DNA of 64,000 bases from Desulfallas thermosapovorans DSM 6562. GTDB taxonomy: Bacteria > Bacillota > Desulfotomaculia > Desulfotomaculales > Desulfallaceae. A program made the translations under genes and the position numbers. Numbering within the stretch: the first letter of the stretch is position 1; every line of letters starts with the position of its first letter. The DNA is taken from assembly GCF_008124625.1 (NCBI RefSeq), contig NZ_VNHM01000001.1, positions 248,001 through 312,000 on the forward strand. Direction: 5' to 3'. The notes under the pieces were generated by a model. The model searched no databases, had not been told where the DNA came from, and saw nothing but the letters and a program-made list of their open reading frames with translations. Of this stretch, positions 12,742 through 47,317 are shown in pieces.

Positions 12742-13563
12742 TTGTCTGAATACGCGTATTCCAGTAAATGGCGGGAGGTTATTTCCTTCCCGCTTGGTGA
12801 ACGATTGAACAAACCCAGAAACAAAGGACTAACCATGGTAATCGATAAAGGTATGGGCATAGGGGAAACCAGGGACCTTTTAAAAATCAATTACCAGCAC
12901 ATTGATTTCATCAAGCTGGGTTTCGGAACACCGGCCCTCTATGCCGAAGGGGCTTTGGAAGAAAAAATACAACTGGTGCGTTCATACAATATTGATATTT
13001 ATCCGGGAGGCACATTTTTAGAAGTGGCATTATTACAAAACAAGGTCAGGGAGTTTCTCGACACCTGCAATTTTTTTGGCTTCACGGCCATTGAGGTGAG
13101 TGACGGAACCATACCCTTGAGCCAGGAGGTGAGAGAAGAAACAATAACATTAGCTGCCGAAAAGGGATTTAGAGTATTAACCGAAGTGGGCAAAAAAAAC
13201 AACGGCGCCGAAATACCGGTGGAAACACTGGCCCGCATGGCCCTTAAAGATTTGCAAAACGGTGCTTACAAGGTTATTCTGGAAGGCCGGGAATGTGGTC
13301 TTAATGTAGGGCTCTATGATGCCAATGGTAAAATGGCAGATGATGATTTGCAGGTACTTCTGGATTATATCGGCGATCCGTCTTTAATTATCTGGGAAGC
13401 ACCCCTAAAAATTCAACAGCAAGATCTGATTACCCGGTTTGGTTCGGATGTAAACCTGGGCAATATCCCACCCCAGGAGGTGCTGGCGGTGGAGGCACTG
13501 CGGGTGGGACTGCGGGCAGATACCCTGCAGCTGGTGCTAGCCGATCTGGATGAACCAAAATAA
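12742..13563 (+). CDS. ComA-like phosphosulfolactate synthase
   Basis: A TIM-barrel protein of the phosphosulfolactate synthase family (ComA, Bacillus YitD), which adds sulfite to phosphoenolpyruvate. Recognisable segments are KGLTMVIDKGMG, DFIKLGFGT, YPGGTFLEVA, AIEVSDGT, TEVGKK, VILEGRECG and WEAPLKIQQ. These hold the acidic and basic active-site residues of the family. I choose a TTG start at 12742 after GGAAAGGGG, giving 273 residues. The product may feed sulfolactate in spores, as known in Bacillus, or coenzyme-M-like compounds. No comB or comC partner is adjacent, so the pathway is an inference. Confidence 0.8.
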   Translation: MSEYAYSSKWREVISFPLGERLNKPRNKGLTMVIDKGMGIGETRDLLKINYQHIDFIKLGFGTPALYAEGALEEKIQLVRSYNIDIYPGGTFLEVALLQNKVREFLDTCNFFGFTAIEVSDGTIPLSQEVREETITLAAEKGFRVLTEVGKKNNGAEIPVETLARMALKDLQNGAYKVILEGRECGLNVGLYDANGKMADDDLQVLLDYIGDPSLIIWEAPLKIQQQDLITRFGSDVNLGNIPPQEVLAVEALRVGLRADTLQLVLADLDEPK

Positions 13564-37386: not shown

Positions 37387-37410
37387 GATTACCATACAAT
37401 TAAATATAGG

Positions 37411-37505
37411 CACACTGGGGGGGCTCCTGAAGCCGGGGCTGAGAGTAAAGCGGCAGCTTTTGACCCTTTGTACCTGATCTGGCTAATACCAGCGGAGGAA
37501 AGTGT
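37411..37505 (+). promoter_or_regulatory. TPP riboswitch (thi box)
   Basis: The conserved TPP aptamer elements are present in order: GGGGGGCTCC, GGGGCTGAGAGTAAAG, GACCCTTTGTACCTGATCTG, and AATACCAGCGGAGGAAAGTG. The ends (ACACT and AGTGT) pair to close P1. It precedes thiM, and the terminator at 37528-37560 follows, so high TPP should stop transcription. Confidence 0.97.
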
Positions 37506-37527
37506 AAATGATTTAAAAGTGTTTAAG

Positions 37528-41529: not shown

Positions 41530-41645
41530 GAATTCGATCCCCTGGAGGGGATTATTTTTATTCCGACTAATAATGTAGCTATTTACTTACACTGGAACGG
41601 CGGGAGGTTTCAATTCCCAAGGGGAATTATTTTTATTCTGCCACC
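41530..41645. CRISPR. degenerate CRISPR remnant: two diverged repeats with one spacer
   Basis: Two copies of the repeat family seen in the array at 47125-47317 lie here. The first (about 41532-41567) contains TCCCCTGGAGGGGATTATTT and ends TTTATTCCGAC; the second (about 41608-41643) contains TTTCAATTCC-CAAGGGGAATT and ends TTTATTCTGCC. They are separated by about 40 bases, a spacer-sized gap. The first copy keeps a stem (ATCCCC/GGGGAT) although its bases differ from the intact repeat, and the second has lost one base. No leader is recognised. Confidence 0.75.
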
Positions 41646-41755: not shown

Positions 41756-42115
41756 TGAGGAAAATAATTCAATTAAGCCCTGTTTTATTTTTTGAAAGAT
41801 CTTCTGTTCAAGCGTTCCCACTTATGACCTTATCCTGCGTATATCAACAGCGCGTATTTGGTCGATTAAAACTACTGATGGTTTGGGAAGCCCACCGCAA
41901 CCTTCAGGTATTTGCTGATACAGCAAAGGATTCCGCTTTGTCCATCTTCCAGTTTGCGAGGTTACAGGAACAACTATGACAACCGGGTAGCGAAGATAAC
42001 CCTAGTGCACAGCTGTTATTATTGCCGGTCTTACGCCTGCTTGTTCGTGCCCTTTGGGTAGGTGGGCGGGAAGACTGACTAAAACGACGTCTCCTGCTCT
42101 TATGCCGGCATTCAA
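41753..42115 (-). pseudogene. MazF/PemK-like toxin gene broken by two in-frame stops
   Basis: One continuous frame of 121 codons reads as a MazF-type RNase toxin: GIRAGDVVLVSLPAHLPKGH, EQAGVRPAIITAVH, stop (TAG), GYLRYPVVIVVPVTSQTGRW, TKRNPLLYQQIPEGCGGLP, PSVVLIDQIRAVDIRRIRS, stop (TAA), VGTLEQKIFQKIKQGLIELF. The RPAIIT, PVTSQT and IDQIR segments are MazF family marks. The TAA stands where a Tyr codon is expected. The TTG start overlaps the antitoxin stop (TTGA at 42112-42115), as in intact toxin-antitoxin operons. Both stops were read directly; the gene is probably dead. Confidence 0.8.
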
Positions 42116-42357
42116 GGTTCCCGTCCTCCTATAATTTCTAGGCCTTTTCCTTTAATATAGCGTACAGGCTTACCCTTCGGAGGTCCTTCAGCGCCCCAAT
42201 CATAGACGGGCCAATCTGCCAAATCGGCGTTTAGCCACTTGATGTCTTCAAAATGCGCCTCGTTTATGATAAATTCAAGAAACCTTTTTGCTACCGGAAT
42301 TTCTTTTTCTGGTAGCACATCTATCAACCGGTATAATTCTTTTCTTTGGATACTCAT
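42112..42357 (-). CDS. MazE-like (DUF2281-type) antitoxin
   Basis: An 81-residue protein. KELYRLIDVLPEKEIPVAKRFLEFIINEA resembles antitoxins of the DUF2281 type that sit ahead of MazF/PemK toxins. The C-terminal part, rich in Trp, Asp and Gly, probably wraps the toxin. Its stop overlaps the toxin start. With the toxin dead, it may be a relic or may act against other MazF proteins. The assignment is from pattern and position. Confidence 0.7.
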   Translation of the reverse strand: MSIQRKELYRLIDVLPEKEIPVAKRFLEFIINEAHFEDIKWLNADLADWPVYDWGAEGPPKGKPVRYIKGKGLEIIGGREP

Positions 42358-42360
42358 TTT

Positions 42361-42633
42361 TCACCACCCCTGCTTTCCTTTTCCTTTCTTCCTCTCCCTT
42401 TTCCTCTTCCAGACCAGATAATCAAGAATATTCTCCTTGTCTTCCTCATTTGGCGGTGCGCCGTCAAAATAAATGTTGGTGAACTTCAAGAATTCCTCTA
42501 GCTCCACGTTGGTGGGCGGTGTTTCCAGGTACCACCAGGCGGGATTGGAGGAGTCATTGGTGCGGCCAGGGTCATCTTTTGGGAATTCTATATCAATATT
42601 TATCTTACCACATAGCCCCACCGCAGAAAACAT
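42361..42633 (-). CDS. hypothetical protein upstream of the antitoxin gene
   Basis: A 90-residue frame, MFSAVGLCGKINIDIEFPKD at the start, WWYLETPPTNVELEEFLKF in the middle, and a very basic end (KRKRERKKGKGKQGW). It ends three bases before the antitoxin start, so it may belong to the same transcript. No good ribosome binding site is seen at the ATG, so it may be the 3' part of a longer lost gene. No function is proposed. Confidence 0.4.
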   Translation of the reverse strand: MFSAVGLCGKINIDIEFPKDDPGRTNDSSNPAWWYLETPPTNVELEEFLKFTNIYFDGAPPNEEDKENILDYLVWKRKRERKKGKGKQGW

Positions 42634-42811
42634 TAGATAAAATCCAAATGCCTGCTGCTAGTTCGTTGATAAATTCCAGCGGCGACAAGTCATATAAACT
42701 ACCATGCCCGGGCTATCCACTTGTCGGCTATTTCTATTGCAGCCGGCCATGCAAAAATTATATTATTTAACTAATTATCCCGTTAAATCAAAAAGGATAA
42801 AGGAGGAAAAA

Positions 42812-44980
42812 ATGGCCCTGGTAGAGTTTGATCTGTTTTTGGACGAAAGCGGAGTGTTTAATGATGCAACGTCGCAGGACCGGCGCAATTCGCTGGTGGG
42901 CGGGATACTTGTCCCCCGGGGTGCCCTGACCGAAAAGCAGGCTAGGGATATTCTGTTGTCCGCCTGCCGTGCCTCGGGCATAAACTGGTCCGGGCGGGGA
43001 ACGCTGCACGCCAATGAACTGCCCCGCGAAAAGTTTCCCGCCATGGCCCTGTCCACGGTTCGGCAGTTAACAGCCGGGCAGGTCAAAGTATTCATGGTTG
43101 AAAACACCGAAAGGTTGCAAATTGTTAACCCCGATATAACTTATTTGAACATGCTGGCGGAGGGTATTACCCAGCTTTTCAGCACCCTGAATACCCAGTA
43201 TGAAAGTATCAGCCTGTCCATTGACGCGGCTGTGCGCATGGTAAAGGATAAACAGCACCCCGGCTCGATCACAGGTATTGAGAGGCAGGAATACACCGCC
43301 CGGCTGCAGGAACGGTTGCACTGGGCCTGGCTGCGCCGGGGCATGGCCGGTGGCAGCAGTAAATGGGACGTAAAAAAATTTATCACCGGCTCCGCCAGGG
43401 AAGAGTACCGGCTCATGCTGGCGGATGTGCTGTGCCATGCCTGGTTTTGCAGAAATACCAAGTTTTCAGGTGCAGCACAACAAGAACTGCTGGCAACCAT
43501 CGAAGAGCACGGCTATATATACAGCGTACTGGAGTACGGCACCATCAGTGCCGTGGAGCGCCTGATGGCGGCCGGTGACCTGGGCGAAGCCTTTTTCATG
43601 ATTTGCACCTCCCTGCTAGAGGAACAAAGATTCAACCACCGGGCCACCGCCGATAAATTATATAAGCTTTTGCCCCGGCTGGTTAACAAGTTGATGGAAC
43701 TGCCGGACACCGGGCGTAACTACCACCTGACTACAATCAAAAACCGGATCAACTATATCATCAATGTGGACAGGCGGTACGACCAGGCCCTGTTTTTAAT
43801 GGAACTGCTCAATAACCACCTGTTACGCCCCCTGAAAGAAACACCTGCGGCCGCACTGGATGAAAATTTACTTAACCTGATTACACTGGAAATTTCCTCA
43901 TCAGTGCTGGCCATTGCCAATCACCGGGGCAACGTGCGCATGGCGGAGCAAATTATCAACGAAATAAAAGAAATCATCCCCCCGCTGGCCGGGCACTGGG
44001 AGAACTTCCAGCATATTATGGAATTTCTGTTCTGGGAAGCAGTGCATTTCAATAACTGCTATGATTTTGACGCCACCATCAAGCTGATGAATACCCTGGA
44101 ACGCTTTTATAACGATACCATCGAGCTATATCCAATCGCCCTGCCCGGAGTATTTCCGGACTCGATAAAATCGGATCTGAAAGGAAAAATACTGGGTAAC
44201 AGGCTGCAGGCTTACATGTTCAAAGGCAGGCTGGACCCCGCCAGTTACCGGCTGGCGCAGAGGGACTCCGACGCGGCACTGGACCAGTTCACCAGCGCCC
44301 ACGACCTGTCCCGGCATTACATGTACCGCTGCCACATCGAAACGGATGCCGGTAATTTCCAAGATGCGCTGCACTACCTGGCCCTGGGAGTGAATAAAAA
44401 ACAGCAGGAGGTCACCACCCAGGAAATTGCCGCGGCCCTGGCCGGCGACCGGCACAGGGAATATGATTTCGGCTTGATGCATTATGCCCGCCTGATGGCC
44501 GCCGCGGCCCCCGGGGAGTTGGCCGGTAATATGGAGCAGGCCTGGCAAAAACACGCTCTGGATAACCACCCGGTGCTGAAGGGTTTTACAGACCACCCGG
44601 TGGAAATCATATGCTGGAAAAAGGGCAGCTATTACCTGGCCACGGGCAGTATTAAAGCCGGGTTGGAGTGGCACCGCCGCGCCCTGGAAATTTGTTTCAG
44701 GGATAATGATAATGTAACACTACAGACCATCGGCCTGGGGGTGCTGGCAGAGCAAGCCGGGCACCTGGCCGGGGCCGGTGACAGGTACAGAAAGGAATAC
44801 AAAAATGCTGTGAAGAAAGCCATGGAAAAATACCGGGAGATTTTCGGCCAGCCCGGGCTGCCCGGGGCAATGGTGGACTATTTTGCCAGCTGGCCTGCGG
44901 TGCTGCAACAGGCCATGGAACGCCGGGACGAGGACACCGCCGCCGCACTGCTAAACCTGGCACACCGGATACCGTTTTAG
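42812..44980 (+). CDS. DUF3800-like nuclease-fold domain fused to a long helical-repeat region
   Basis: A 722-residue protein. Residues 5-250 show the DUF3800 pattern: FDLFLDESGVF with D11-E12, NSLVGGILVP, a His-Asn-Glu cluster LHANEL (66-70), D138 in SLSIDAAVR, and LADVLCHAWF with D205. This arrangement of acidic residues is that of RNase H-like metal nucleases, but activity is unproven. Residues 250-722 are helical with TPR-like stretches (for example AEQIINEIKEIIPPLAGHWE and YYLATGSIKAGLEWHRRALE). AAAGGAGG lies ahead of the ATG at 42812. It converges with the CARF-HEPN gene and lies between two CRISPR remnants. Function is inferred from context only. Confidence 0.75.
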   Translation: MALVEFDLFLDESGVFNDATSQDRRNSLVGGILVPRGALTEKQARDILLSACRASGINWSGRGTLHANELPREKFPAMALSTVRQLTAGQVKVFMVENTERLQIVNPDITYLNMLAEGITQLFSTLNTQYESISLSIDAAVRMVKDKQHPGSITGIERQEYTARLQERLHWAWLRRGMAGGSSKWDVKKFITGSAREEYRLMLADVLCHAWFCRNTKFSGAAQQELLATIEEHGYIYSVLEYGTISAVERLMAAGDLGEAFFMICTSLLEEQRFNHRATADKLYKLLPRLVNKLMELPDTGRNYHLTTIKNRINYIINVDRRYDQALFLMELLNNHLLRPLKETPAAALDENLLNLITLEISSSVLAIANHRGNVRMAEQIINEIKEIIPPLAGHWENFQHIMEFLFWEAVHFNNCYDFDATIKLMNTLERFYNDTIELYPIALPGVFPDSIKSDLKGKILGNRLQAYMFKGRLDPASYRLAQRDSDAALDQFTSAHDLSRHYMYRCHIETDAGNFQDALHYLALGVNKKQQEVTTQEIAAALAGDRHREYDFGLMHYARLMAAAAPGELAGNMEQAWQKHALDNHPVLKGFTDHPVEIICWKKGSYYLATGSIKAGLEWHRRALEICFRDNDNVTLQTIGLGVLAEQAGHLAGAGDRYRKEYKNAVKKAMEKYREIFGQPGLPGAMVDYFASWPAVLQQAMERRDEDTAAALLNLAHRIPF

Positions 44981-45143: not shown

Positions 45144-46919
45144 TTAATCTCCCAGTTCTATCAATTCCCCCGTGACATAGGGCTGTTCCCGCTGTTCCGC
45201 CGGGTTCCGCCTGTCCACCAGGGCAATGCGCCGCACCTGGACGGCTCCGGATAATGCCTGTTCAAAGACTTGCTGCACAATATGCTGCATAGCCGTGGTG
45301 CCACCGGTGATATTCACCACCACCCGGCTATATTGCTTCATTAACGGCAGCGCAGCGGCACAAATACCCGGGCCTTCGGAAAAACCCGCATGGACGTCCT
45401 GCATATACCGGGTAAAAACATCACCTTCCCAGCTTGCCGCTTGCTTTATTTCATCCAGGTAACAGGCTGCATCAGCGGAAGATATAACAAACAGGGCGTC
45501 GGGATTAATGTGACGCAGGGCCGAATACAACAGCCCTTTGGAAAGCCCCAAAGGGGTGACCAGCAGCGTGCCGCCACCTAAGGGCTCGGCGCTTTCTGCA
45601 GCCATAGGAGAAAAATCAAGTCTCCATTTTGTACCATCTTCCAGCGCATCCTTTAATTCCTGCCACTTGGACCGGATATCCGCCAAGTGTTCTTGGCCCA
45701 GCAAAGCGTTGTTTTGCCGGAAACCATGGTGATGAAGGCCGTTGCGTTTATCCGTCATATATTTCCATAGAGAAGCCAGCCACTGTTGCTGCCCATCAAG
45801 TTGCTCCTTGCGATGACGGTAAGTATCACCCAATGCCCCCAGCTTTTCTTCTACACCCTTACGCCCGTAGTCTTTGTTGGAAAGCCACTTTTCACCAACC
45901 ACCTTTGGTTCATCCCCTGCCTGGACGTGATACAAGCAAACGGAAACCATCCATTCACGTATCAACCCGGCTGCAAAGTTTACATAACCCTGTTCCATAT
46001 ACCTGTCGATAATACTGGCCTGGCGCCGGAGTTCACAGTAATCCAGTCCAAGTTTTTGCTTTCCCTTTTTCAGTCCCGGCAGGGCAAAGGGAGTGATAAA
46101 TTGTTTTATGGTACCAAACAACTCCTCCGGCAGGGGCATTTGGGCCTGCAGGTGCTCCGGCAAAGGCCCGCTCAATTTTTTTAAGAGCTTGTCCGCCGCA
46201 ATACCAAACTCCAATGGCAACGCCTGGGCATAGGCATCAGCCACCTGTTTGAAGTCCTGGCGCAGTTTTTCCACCAACTCGTACGGCTTGCGTTCACGGC
46301 CGCTTACACCTTCCGGCAATACGGCGTAAGGTGCCAATCTATCTAACAGGCTGCCGGCCTGGCCGGTTTCTGAAAATATTCTGGCGGCATAAAACCATTC
46401 CACCATGTCCAGGATGAGGGATACATCCACAATTGGTTTAGGTTTATCCCTTTCTATCATTTCATAGAGGCCATAATAAGCCGCATCTATATTTACACCG
46501 CGAAGAGCTTTTAAATACAGAGCAGCAGTAAAAAATAAAAAGGGAAAAGTTCTATACCCGTGGGTTAAGTCCAGAGTAAGCCGGCATTTTGCAGGAATTA
46601 AATCTTGATCAACTAAAATTTCGTGCATAATCTGCCATAATTCTTCGGTTGATTTGCCATCGGGTATTTTAATGTATACTACATCCATCTTGGGATATTC
46701 CGTTATTACTTTTTCTCTAAACACCGGGTAAATTTTCTCCAAAATTAGAGTTGTGCACAAAACAATAATTTTATGCGGCAACTCTTCCCGTGGTAGGAGT
46801 TGCAGTAAAGCCAAAGTAGCCAAATCTGTTTCAACCTTTTTAGAAGCATCCTTTTCCAGGTAATACACTGTATTTTTTGGGTATGCACTCAATGAAGTTA
46901 ATAGAATTCTACCAGACAA
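45144..46919 (-). CDS. CARF-HEPN ribonuclease (Csx1/Csx2-like) with a second C-terminal CARF-like domain
   Basis: A 591-residue protein. Residues 1-185 resemble the TM1812/Csx2 type of CARF domain: RILLTSLSAYP, LPHKIIVLCT, LTLDLTHGYRTFPFLFFTAA with DLTHGYR at 117-123, and AAYYGLYE. The middle holds a HEPN RNase motif, R392-N393-x3-H397 (TDKRNGLHHHGF). Residues 448-591 form another Rossmann-like domain with LLVTPLGLSKGLLYSAL (453-468) and VVVNITGGTTAMQ (533-545), the loop found in Csm6-type CARF domains. CARF domains bind cyclic oligoadenylates made by Cas10 and switch on the HEPN nuclease. A TTG start at 46919 follows GAGGCG. A CRISPR array lies upstream, but no cas10 is visible here. Confidence 0.85.
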   Translation of the reverse strand: MSGRILLTSLSAYPKNTVYYLEKDASKKVETDLATLALLQLLPREELPHKIIVLCTTLILEKIYPVFREKVITEYPKMDVVYIKIPDGKSTEELWQIMHEILVDQDLIPAKCRLTLDLTHGYRTFPFLFFTAALYLKALRGVNIDAAYYGLYEMIERDKPKPIVDVSLILDMVEWFYAARIFSETGQAGSLLDRLAPYAVLPEGVSGRERKPYELVEKLRQDFKQVADAYAQALPLEFGIAADKLLKKLSGPLPEHLQAQMPLPEELFGTIKQFITPFALPGLKKGKQKLGLDYCELRRQASIIDRYMEQGYVNFAAGLIREWMVSVCLYHVQAGDEPKVVGEKWLSNKDYGRKGVEEKLGALGDTYRHRKEQLDGQQQWLASLWKYMTDKRNGLHHHGFRQNNALLGQEHLADIRSKWQELKDALEDGTKWRLDFSPMAAESAEPLGGGTLLVTPLGLSKGLLYSALRHINPDALFVISSADAACYLDEIKQAASWEGDVFTRYMQDVHAGFSEGPGICAAALPLMKQYSRVVVNITGGTTAMQHIVQQVFEQALSGAVQVRRIALVDRRNPAEQREQPYVTGELIELGD

Positions 46920-47124: not shown

Positions 47125-47317
47125 GCTTCAATTCCCCAAGGGGAATTATTTTTATTCAGACATACCGGTTTAGGAGATGAAACCTTCCCCTGGGAGTTTA
47201 CATTGCTTCAATTCCCCAAGGGGAATTATTTTTATTCAGACGTCGCTGGACGACAGCGACAGCGGACGTCACTTGCACATGTTTCAATTCCCCAAGGGGA
47301 ATTATTTTTATTCAGAC
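47125..47317. CRISPR. CRISPR array: three 37-base repeats, two spacers
   Basis: Three repeats at 47125-47161, 47205-47241 and 47281-47317 are identical except that the third has T in place of C at the second base. Each starts G(C/T)TTCAATTCCCC, has the palindrome AATTCCCCAAGGGGAATT and ends ATTTTTATTCAGAC. Spacers are 43 bases (47162-47204) and 39 bases (47242-47280). A further fragment AAGGGGAATTATT at 47068-47080 suggests a decayed repeat on the left. No cas1 or cas2 gene is visible. The direction of transcription is unknown. Confidence 0.95.

Follow-up and report, generated by a model that had tools for sequence, protein, structure and literature searches.

A rare DUF3800-like plus TPR protein family with a predicted, probable helper role in bacterial immunity

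The usual mark of an ancillary protein of type III CRISPR systems is a messenger-binding domain of its own. What part might a large protein play, then, if it lies beside a CARF-HEPN gene and CRISPR repeats and carries no apparent sensor of its own? The question is raised by a gene at positions 42812-44980 (+) of the window, the stretch of 64,000 nucleotides of Desulfallas thermosapovorans DSM 6562 that was analysed here. A first-pass annotation had read its product as a DUF3800-type domain with a long helical tail, and had considered a defence role plausible. That role is strengthened by the present analysis, in which most homologues with the same layout lay in defence-like surroundings and half had a CRISPR link. 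A spread over mostly unrelated contexts was not seen, though about half of the homologues lie away from CRISPR loci. From the evidence below we predict that the family probably serves bacterial immunity as a helper common to several systems.

The gene and its two-part product

The window gene is an intact open frame with a ribosome-binding site (AGGAGG, 42801-42806, +) 5 nt ahead of its ATG. Its product of 722 aa has full-length homologues that are 18-75% identical. dN/dS is well below 1, both against the nearest relative (G003, 75% identical; dN 0.15, dS 0.94) and within the homologue pair L016/L017 (dN 0.11, dS 0.96), and purifying constraint is visible in both domains of the protein. The gene is real and under purifying selection. 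A Pfam search of the protein returned no significant family, its single match falling below the cut-off (E 0.096), and a PADLOC search returned no match. An AlphaFold2 model built from six sequences has a mean pLDDT of 82.7; its lower-confidence ten-residue blocks (about 48-61) are in the front domain, around residues 11-30, 101-110, 141-160, and 181-190.

The front domain spans about residues 1-240 (42812-43531, +), as judged from the model, Foldseek, and the alignment. Residues 4-239 of the model follow an order of strands and helices that we interpret as an RNase H-like core, and a Foldseek search against the viral structures of BFVD ranked a DUF3800 protein first (E 1.3e-4, probability 1.00, TMt 0.60). 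When the domain was compared profile to profile with 19 ordinary DUF3800 proteins, only the region of the LAD motif aligned (92% probability, E 6.4e-7). The PDB fold-match lists consisted of TPRs and further chains with helical repeats, and so cover the tail; the matches of a PDB sequence search were likewise almost all TPRs. The Pfam DUF3800 model (PF12686) does not match the window protein even at E ≤ 1 and matches one of the 18 full-length homologues (E 1.2e-5). The DUF3800 reading of the first-pass annotation is thus upheld by structure (model and Foldseek) and not by Pfam, and because PF12686 has no match to the window protein we call it a DUF3800-like plus TPR protein rather than a Pfam member. 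Support for a distant DUF3800-type RNase H-like domain comes from two motifs (DES and LAD), from the fold of the model, and from the Foldseek match.

Residues invariant in 18/18 full-length homologues within this domain are D11, E12, S13, G14, F16, S27, G31, L33, H66, G118, L126, R142, L201, and D205. They include the DUF3800 hallmarks, namely D11 E12 S13, with which strand 1 closes, and the late D205 in an aD motif, and the DES and late D are also invariant in the 19 ordinary DUF3800 proteins. D11, E12, and D205, which had been named as metal ligands from the sequence, are accordingly present and fully conserved. D138, named along with them, is D or E in just 2/18 homologues and is ruled out as a conserved ligand; position 136 is D in 2/18. 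Judging by the alignment, E117, H66, and R142 are better candidates for the active site, position 117 (E117 in the window protein) being acidic in 17/18 homologues. The predicted placement of D11-E12 on strand 1, the position-117 acid on the first core helix, and D205 on the last core helix suggests, from topology, that the acids cluster. An acid on strand 4 is typical of DUF3800 proteins and was seen by eye in ordinary members; it is not conserved in the 18 homologues, and the site may therefore be modified or inactive. We regard the front domain as a probable metal-dependent nuclease.

Most DUF3800 proteins in the sample are indeed short, as had been remarked: 32 PF12686 matches in 199 genomes have frames of 120-386 aa. 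These proteins have in common with the family the N-terminal DES(G), the late AD motif, and an RNase H-like fold match. The family differs from them in its long TPR tail, in having no conserved strand-4 acid, and in having no DUF3800-type small RNA nearby, none being found at 16 family loci (the window, L006-L009, L016-L020, L065, and L081-L085). DUF3800-VII or -VIII RNAs occur at 5/20 short-DUF3800 loci (L041, L045, L048, L049, and L052), where they are adjacent to the short gene on the opposite strand. In addition to the long gene, the host genome of the window carries a short one of the ordinary DUF3800 kind (G000:C22; L034, L089; E 4e-17). The PADLOC model DUF3800_VII, which we take to be the retron type VII effector, gave weak matches in 2/18 homologues (best E 1.2e-4) and none for the window protein, and the PADLOC CARF models matched none of the 18 at E ≤ 0.01. 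An identity of the 722-aa protein as a CARF protein or a known effector was rejected on these results.

From about residue 241 onward (residues 241-722; 43532-44977, +), the model consists of helices alone, in pairs, which repeat with TPR packing. The long helical tail described earlier is therefore predicted to be a TPR superhelix. A CTPR profile matches it (E 1.4e-4), VIA-align gives Z scores of 17-21 against the TPR superhelices of Rap, NprR, LGN, and APPBP2, and H371, G373, A489, R501, and P596 are invariant in 18/18 homologues. Proteins of the Rap/NprR/AimR type resemble the tail in fold only (VIA-align Z about 16-21); they bind peptides or proteins and, to our knowledge, have no RNase H-like domain. 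The tail had been suggested to be a partner- or RNA-sensing arm, and its likeness to the peptide- and protein-binding superhelices of Rap, NprR, and LGN favours partner binding over RNA sensing.

Neighbourhoods of the window gene and its homologues

The window gene faces a gene for a CARF-HEPN-CARF type III ancillary RNase at 45144-46919 (-), recognised by PADLOC model PDLC01840 (E 3.4e-188) and bearing an RNGLHHHG motif. The two genes are convergent and 163 bp apart, and the 722-aa gene is not in an operon with a partner. A short CRISPR array of three near-identical 37-nt repeats, found by repeat search and sequence reading, lies at 47125-47317 (+). Across the island, at 41531-41642 (+), there are two degenerate copies of the same repeat, with an Rfam RF01376 match at 41607-41642. 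The facing CARF-HEPN gene and the nearby array that the first-pass annotation had pointed out are thus both confirmed. No core cas genes were found in the window between 34000 and 54000. Contig C23 of the host genome carries the cmr core genes together with type I-B genes and a CARF-HEPN-CARF gene; its locus L029 holds a III-B cmr operon with CARF-HEPN-CARF, WYL-type regulators before it, and the type I-B genes directly after. The core of the window CRISPR repeat was absent from L029 and from six other loci scanned.

At 42112-42633 (-), two short genes with products of 81 and 90 aa adjoin both the CRISPR remnant and the 722-aa gene. They resemble a toxin-antitoxin pair or a pair of small accessory genes; neither Pfam nor PADLOC gave a useful family match for them. 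Farther off, a TPP riboswitch at 37407-37517 (+; Rfam, 75.7 bits) is followed by what by eye appear to be thiamine genes.

The family is rare in the genomes searched. In search sets that overlap and each include their centre genome, homologues were counted in 4/100 relatives of the window genome, 4/113 genomes of its class, 3/398 drawn from its phylum, 2/391 in the class of G497, 1/15 in the class of G130, and 1/150 in the order of G496. The order of G420 was richer, with 11/151 (8 full-length, 3 touching the TPR part alone), and the full order searched with a wider profile gave 18/189 (9 full-length). Five loci come from GTDB contigs, one of which is a contig already in G003. No relatives were found among viral contigs (searched twice), phages, or plasmids. 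The context study covers 18 full-length homologues; a nineteenth, L126, was found afterwards as the one new full-length homologue in a set sought as an independent test (the order of G420, 189 genomes), which also yielded L127, a match in the TPR part. L126 lies on a 7.8-kb contig, within which there is no CRISPR.

CRISPR arrays or cas/CARF genes lie near 9/18 homologues, the window gene among them, at III-A, III-B, and III-D loci (cmr and csm genes outside the PADLOC scan were identified by eye or with phmmer). At L018 (G130), an array, a CARF-HEPN gene, and III-B cmr1-6 are followed about 40 bp on by the homologue gene on the same strand. At L017/L031 (G039), a CARF-HEPN gene is 49 bp upstream, with cas6-like, cas2, cas4-cas1, and cmr genes and arrays, and at L020 (G003, a Desulfoscipio geothermicus MAG) there is a CARF-HEPN-Csx3 gene and then a cmr operon. 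At L016/L030 (G027) an array is about 3.5 kb off and WYL genes are present, and about 10 kb off there is a csm/III-A locus that includes a CARF-HEPN-CARF gene. Two further homologues are at III-D loci. L086 (G1091) has Cas10d, Cas7-IIId, cas1, a cas2-like gene, an array, and two CARF-HEPN genes around the homologue, one of them 3 bp away; at L084/L108 (G1031), a CARF-HEPN gene overlaps the homologue by 76 bp, and CRISPR arrays and a Cas10d/III-D operon are within about 15 kb. At L087 (G1083) Cas6 adjoins the homologue at the contig end, and L085 (G1158) has a CRISPR array about 2 kb off and a III-A locus on another contig. A PADLOC scan of chosen neighbours found no Cas12 among them. In the L085 array (13240-13482), one spacer is present twice with one repeat-spacer unit between, which is either a recent duplication or an assembly artefact.

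The other 9/18 homologues (10/19 with L126) are outside CRISPR loci, and most of these adjoin NACHT-like, membrane-HEPN-like, or McrBC-like genes. For neighbours other than CARF proteins, HEPN was not borne out by Pfam, so the HEPN label is there a motif-level one (an Rx4-6H-type motif). At L006 (Clostridium sp. Cult1), the homologue is in a same-strand run with a TPR protein and a NACHT-like protein bearing WRNNNIGHG, and the III-A locus of that genome is about 420 kb away. L019 (G420) has a 1501-aa NACHT-like protein with WRNEKIGHG and, on the other side, a UvrD-exonuclease like PADLOC RTasHel. At L081, an HSP70-like gene and a gene of the NB-ARC/NACHT kind share a same-strand run with the homologue, and the neighbour at L065 is a DUF4145 protein, presumably HEPN-like. 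L082 and L083 have DUF2357-like proteins and AAA genes, with PD-(D/E)XK in L082 and a weak match in L083, sets that we take to be McrBC-like. At L007, L008, and L009, the homologue is in a tight operon with a membrane-protein pair (L007:6122-9978, L008:8714-12399, L009:6425-9995) that matches no Pfam family and has RNx4HG in one or both members; these operons may be an undescribed defence module. A strict RNx4HG occurs within three genes at 5/18 family loci vs 0/17 controls, a count that leaves out three controls in which no DUF3800 ORF was picked.

Linkage against controls and on the tree

The controls were 20 ordinary short-DUF3800 loci of the same phylum, drawn from the 32 PF12686 matches and run through the same scripts. 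The family recurs in type III loci: CRISPR/cas/CARF linkage was found for 9/18 family loci (9/19 with L126) and 1/20 controls (P = 0.0025), a count that favours the family since the cas reference set was drawn from family loci. The sole control match was a weak Cas10-like one (1e-5). Arrays alone, which like the PADLOC scans are free of that fault, gave 7/18 vs 0/20 (P = 0.0025). Several control stretches were about 11-12 kb long vs the usual 20 kb, and some family stretches were likewise short. Part of the difference in linkage is one of genome content, since control genomes are poorer in Cas10-like genes (3/19, G000 aside, vs 13/18 family genomes, made up of 8/10 in one scan and 5/8 in another, several matches being weak). 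The base rate of Cas10-like genes in relatives of the window genome is 40/100.

Relatedness also bears on these counts. The window's five-member branch gives 5 of the 9 CRISPR-linked cases, so the independent events are few. With related homologues collapsed by hand to branches, 4/9 were linked vs 1/20 controls (P = 0.02). Three changes of the CRISPR label are required on the tree, and well-supported branches force at least two of them, the places of L087, L085, and L018 being unsure because of long branches. CRISPR linkage is found on at least two separate branches, and the label clusters on the tree more than in shuffles (2/500 as low).

Proposed role and its rivals

We propose, with a probability of about one half, that the protein is an accessory effector-like part without a CARF sensor of its own, and that its TPR arm connects it to immune modules of type III and of other kinds. 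From the predicted domains, the invariant residues, and the observed linkage, we infer a nuclease activity, partner binding, an order of events, and a substrate as follows. The RNase H-like front would be a metal-dependent nuclease using D11-E12, position 117, D205, and the invariant H66 and R142, and the TPR superhelix would dock the protein to a partner, either a neighbouring sensor or an effector. In the window genome and its relatives, this partner would belong to type III CRISPR immunity, where Cas10 would sense target RNA, a second messenger would follow, and the CARF-HEPN protein would be activated. The DUF3800-TPR protein would act on nucleic acid beside or after CARF-HEPN, as a second nuclease or on the products, and on infection would add a second cleavage activity. 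In other lineages, the same part may be used with NACHT-like, membrane-HEPN-like, or McrBC-like sensors. Because some homologues occur without CRISPR, the protein would be expected to work without relying on cyclic oligoadenylate itself. A bolder form of the proposal, which we hold only tentatively, makes it a general "second-stage" nuclease common to HEPN- and STAND-based sensors and recruited via the TPR arm, in effect a sensorless, messenger-independent type III effector. The sensors would then be CARF-HEPN (cyclic-oligoadenylate-sensing), HEPN-NACHT, membrane HEPN pairs, and McrBC-like systems. If true, so recurrent a sensorless companion would amount to a further type III step that is run by protein contact and common to unrelated immune systems.

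The main rival, unlikely in our estimate, is an off-switch or safety factor that limits HEPN or type III activity, for instance by degrading the messenger or toxic RNA products, or that directly antagonises the neighbouring RNase via the TPR arm. The family does adjoin RNase-type effectors with different sensors, and at L017, L084, and L086 the homologue is co-directional and tightly spaced with CARF-HEPN, like a toxin-antidote pair. The window genes are convergent, however, and other homologues are in loci with no Cas10 or CARF found nearby, so degradation of cyclic oligoadenylate cannot be the general function of the family. That variety of partners, half of the homologues being off CRISPR, together with a window gene that is not in an operon with a partner, would suit an independent passenger of defence islands, such as a stand-alone system that accumulates near defence genes. 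We consider a passenger quite unlikely given the operon-like adjacency at L017, L018, L084, and L086, the operons of L007, L008, and L009, and a TPR arm that suggests a partner.

There are two further options. A role in crRNA maturation or decay, as suggested for a Cas12a2-associated TPR-DUF3800 protein (Altae-Tran et al. 2023, PMC10910872), would gain from the Cas6 that adjoins the homologue in L087, but other loci or genomes of the set (L017, L030, L109) have Cas6-like genes too, and no array lies close to roughly half of the homologues, which makes this role improbable. The loss of the strand-4 acid would be expected if the RNase H-like domain were catalytically dead and served as a scaffold; we think this very improbable, since the invariance of D11, E12, D205, H66, and R142 over 18 divergent proteins, with position 117 acidic in 17/18, would be unusual for a dead site.

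The accessory effector-like reading has precedents among class 2 systems. The Cas12a2-linked protein of PMC10910872 is described as joining TPRs to a DUF3800 domain that has an RNase H fold and a "catalytic rearrangement", and it lies beside a branch of Cas12a2, a CRISPR effector triggered by RNA; compared by description only, it resembles the present family, and such a rearrangement would fit a site without the strand-4 acid. In that system Cas12a2 is the effector, accompanied in some cases by UvrD and a second TPR protein, whereas the loci here are III-A, III-B, and III-D with CARF-HEPN genes, or have no CRISPR. According to the 2025 CRISPR-Cas classification (PMC12669027), some VI-F and V-A2 loci contain a nuclease of the DUF3800 family with an RNase H fold, alike as an RNase H-fold DUF3800 accessory of RNA-sensing CRISPR and different in being class 2. 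In the texts searched, no printed type III link for DUF3800 proteins was found, though the supplements of the two papers may list one. The contexts described here would widen the ground on which a common task of the DUF3800 nucleases tied to Cas12a2 and VI-F could be tested (PMC10910872, PMC12669027). Nuclease-protease pairs have been described as recurrently acquired by unrelated immune systems (PMC12799240), and the principle of one part reused across such systems would be common to both cases.

The TPR part also occurs with another front: L127:8291-11431 (-) encodes a 1046-aa protein in which a P-loop-like front precedes the same TPR part, near a Cas6-like gene.
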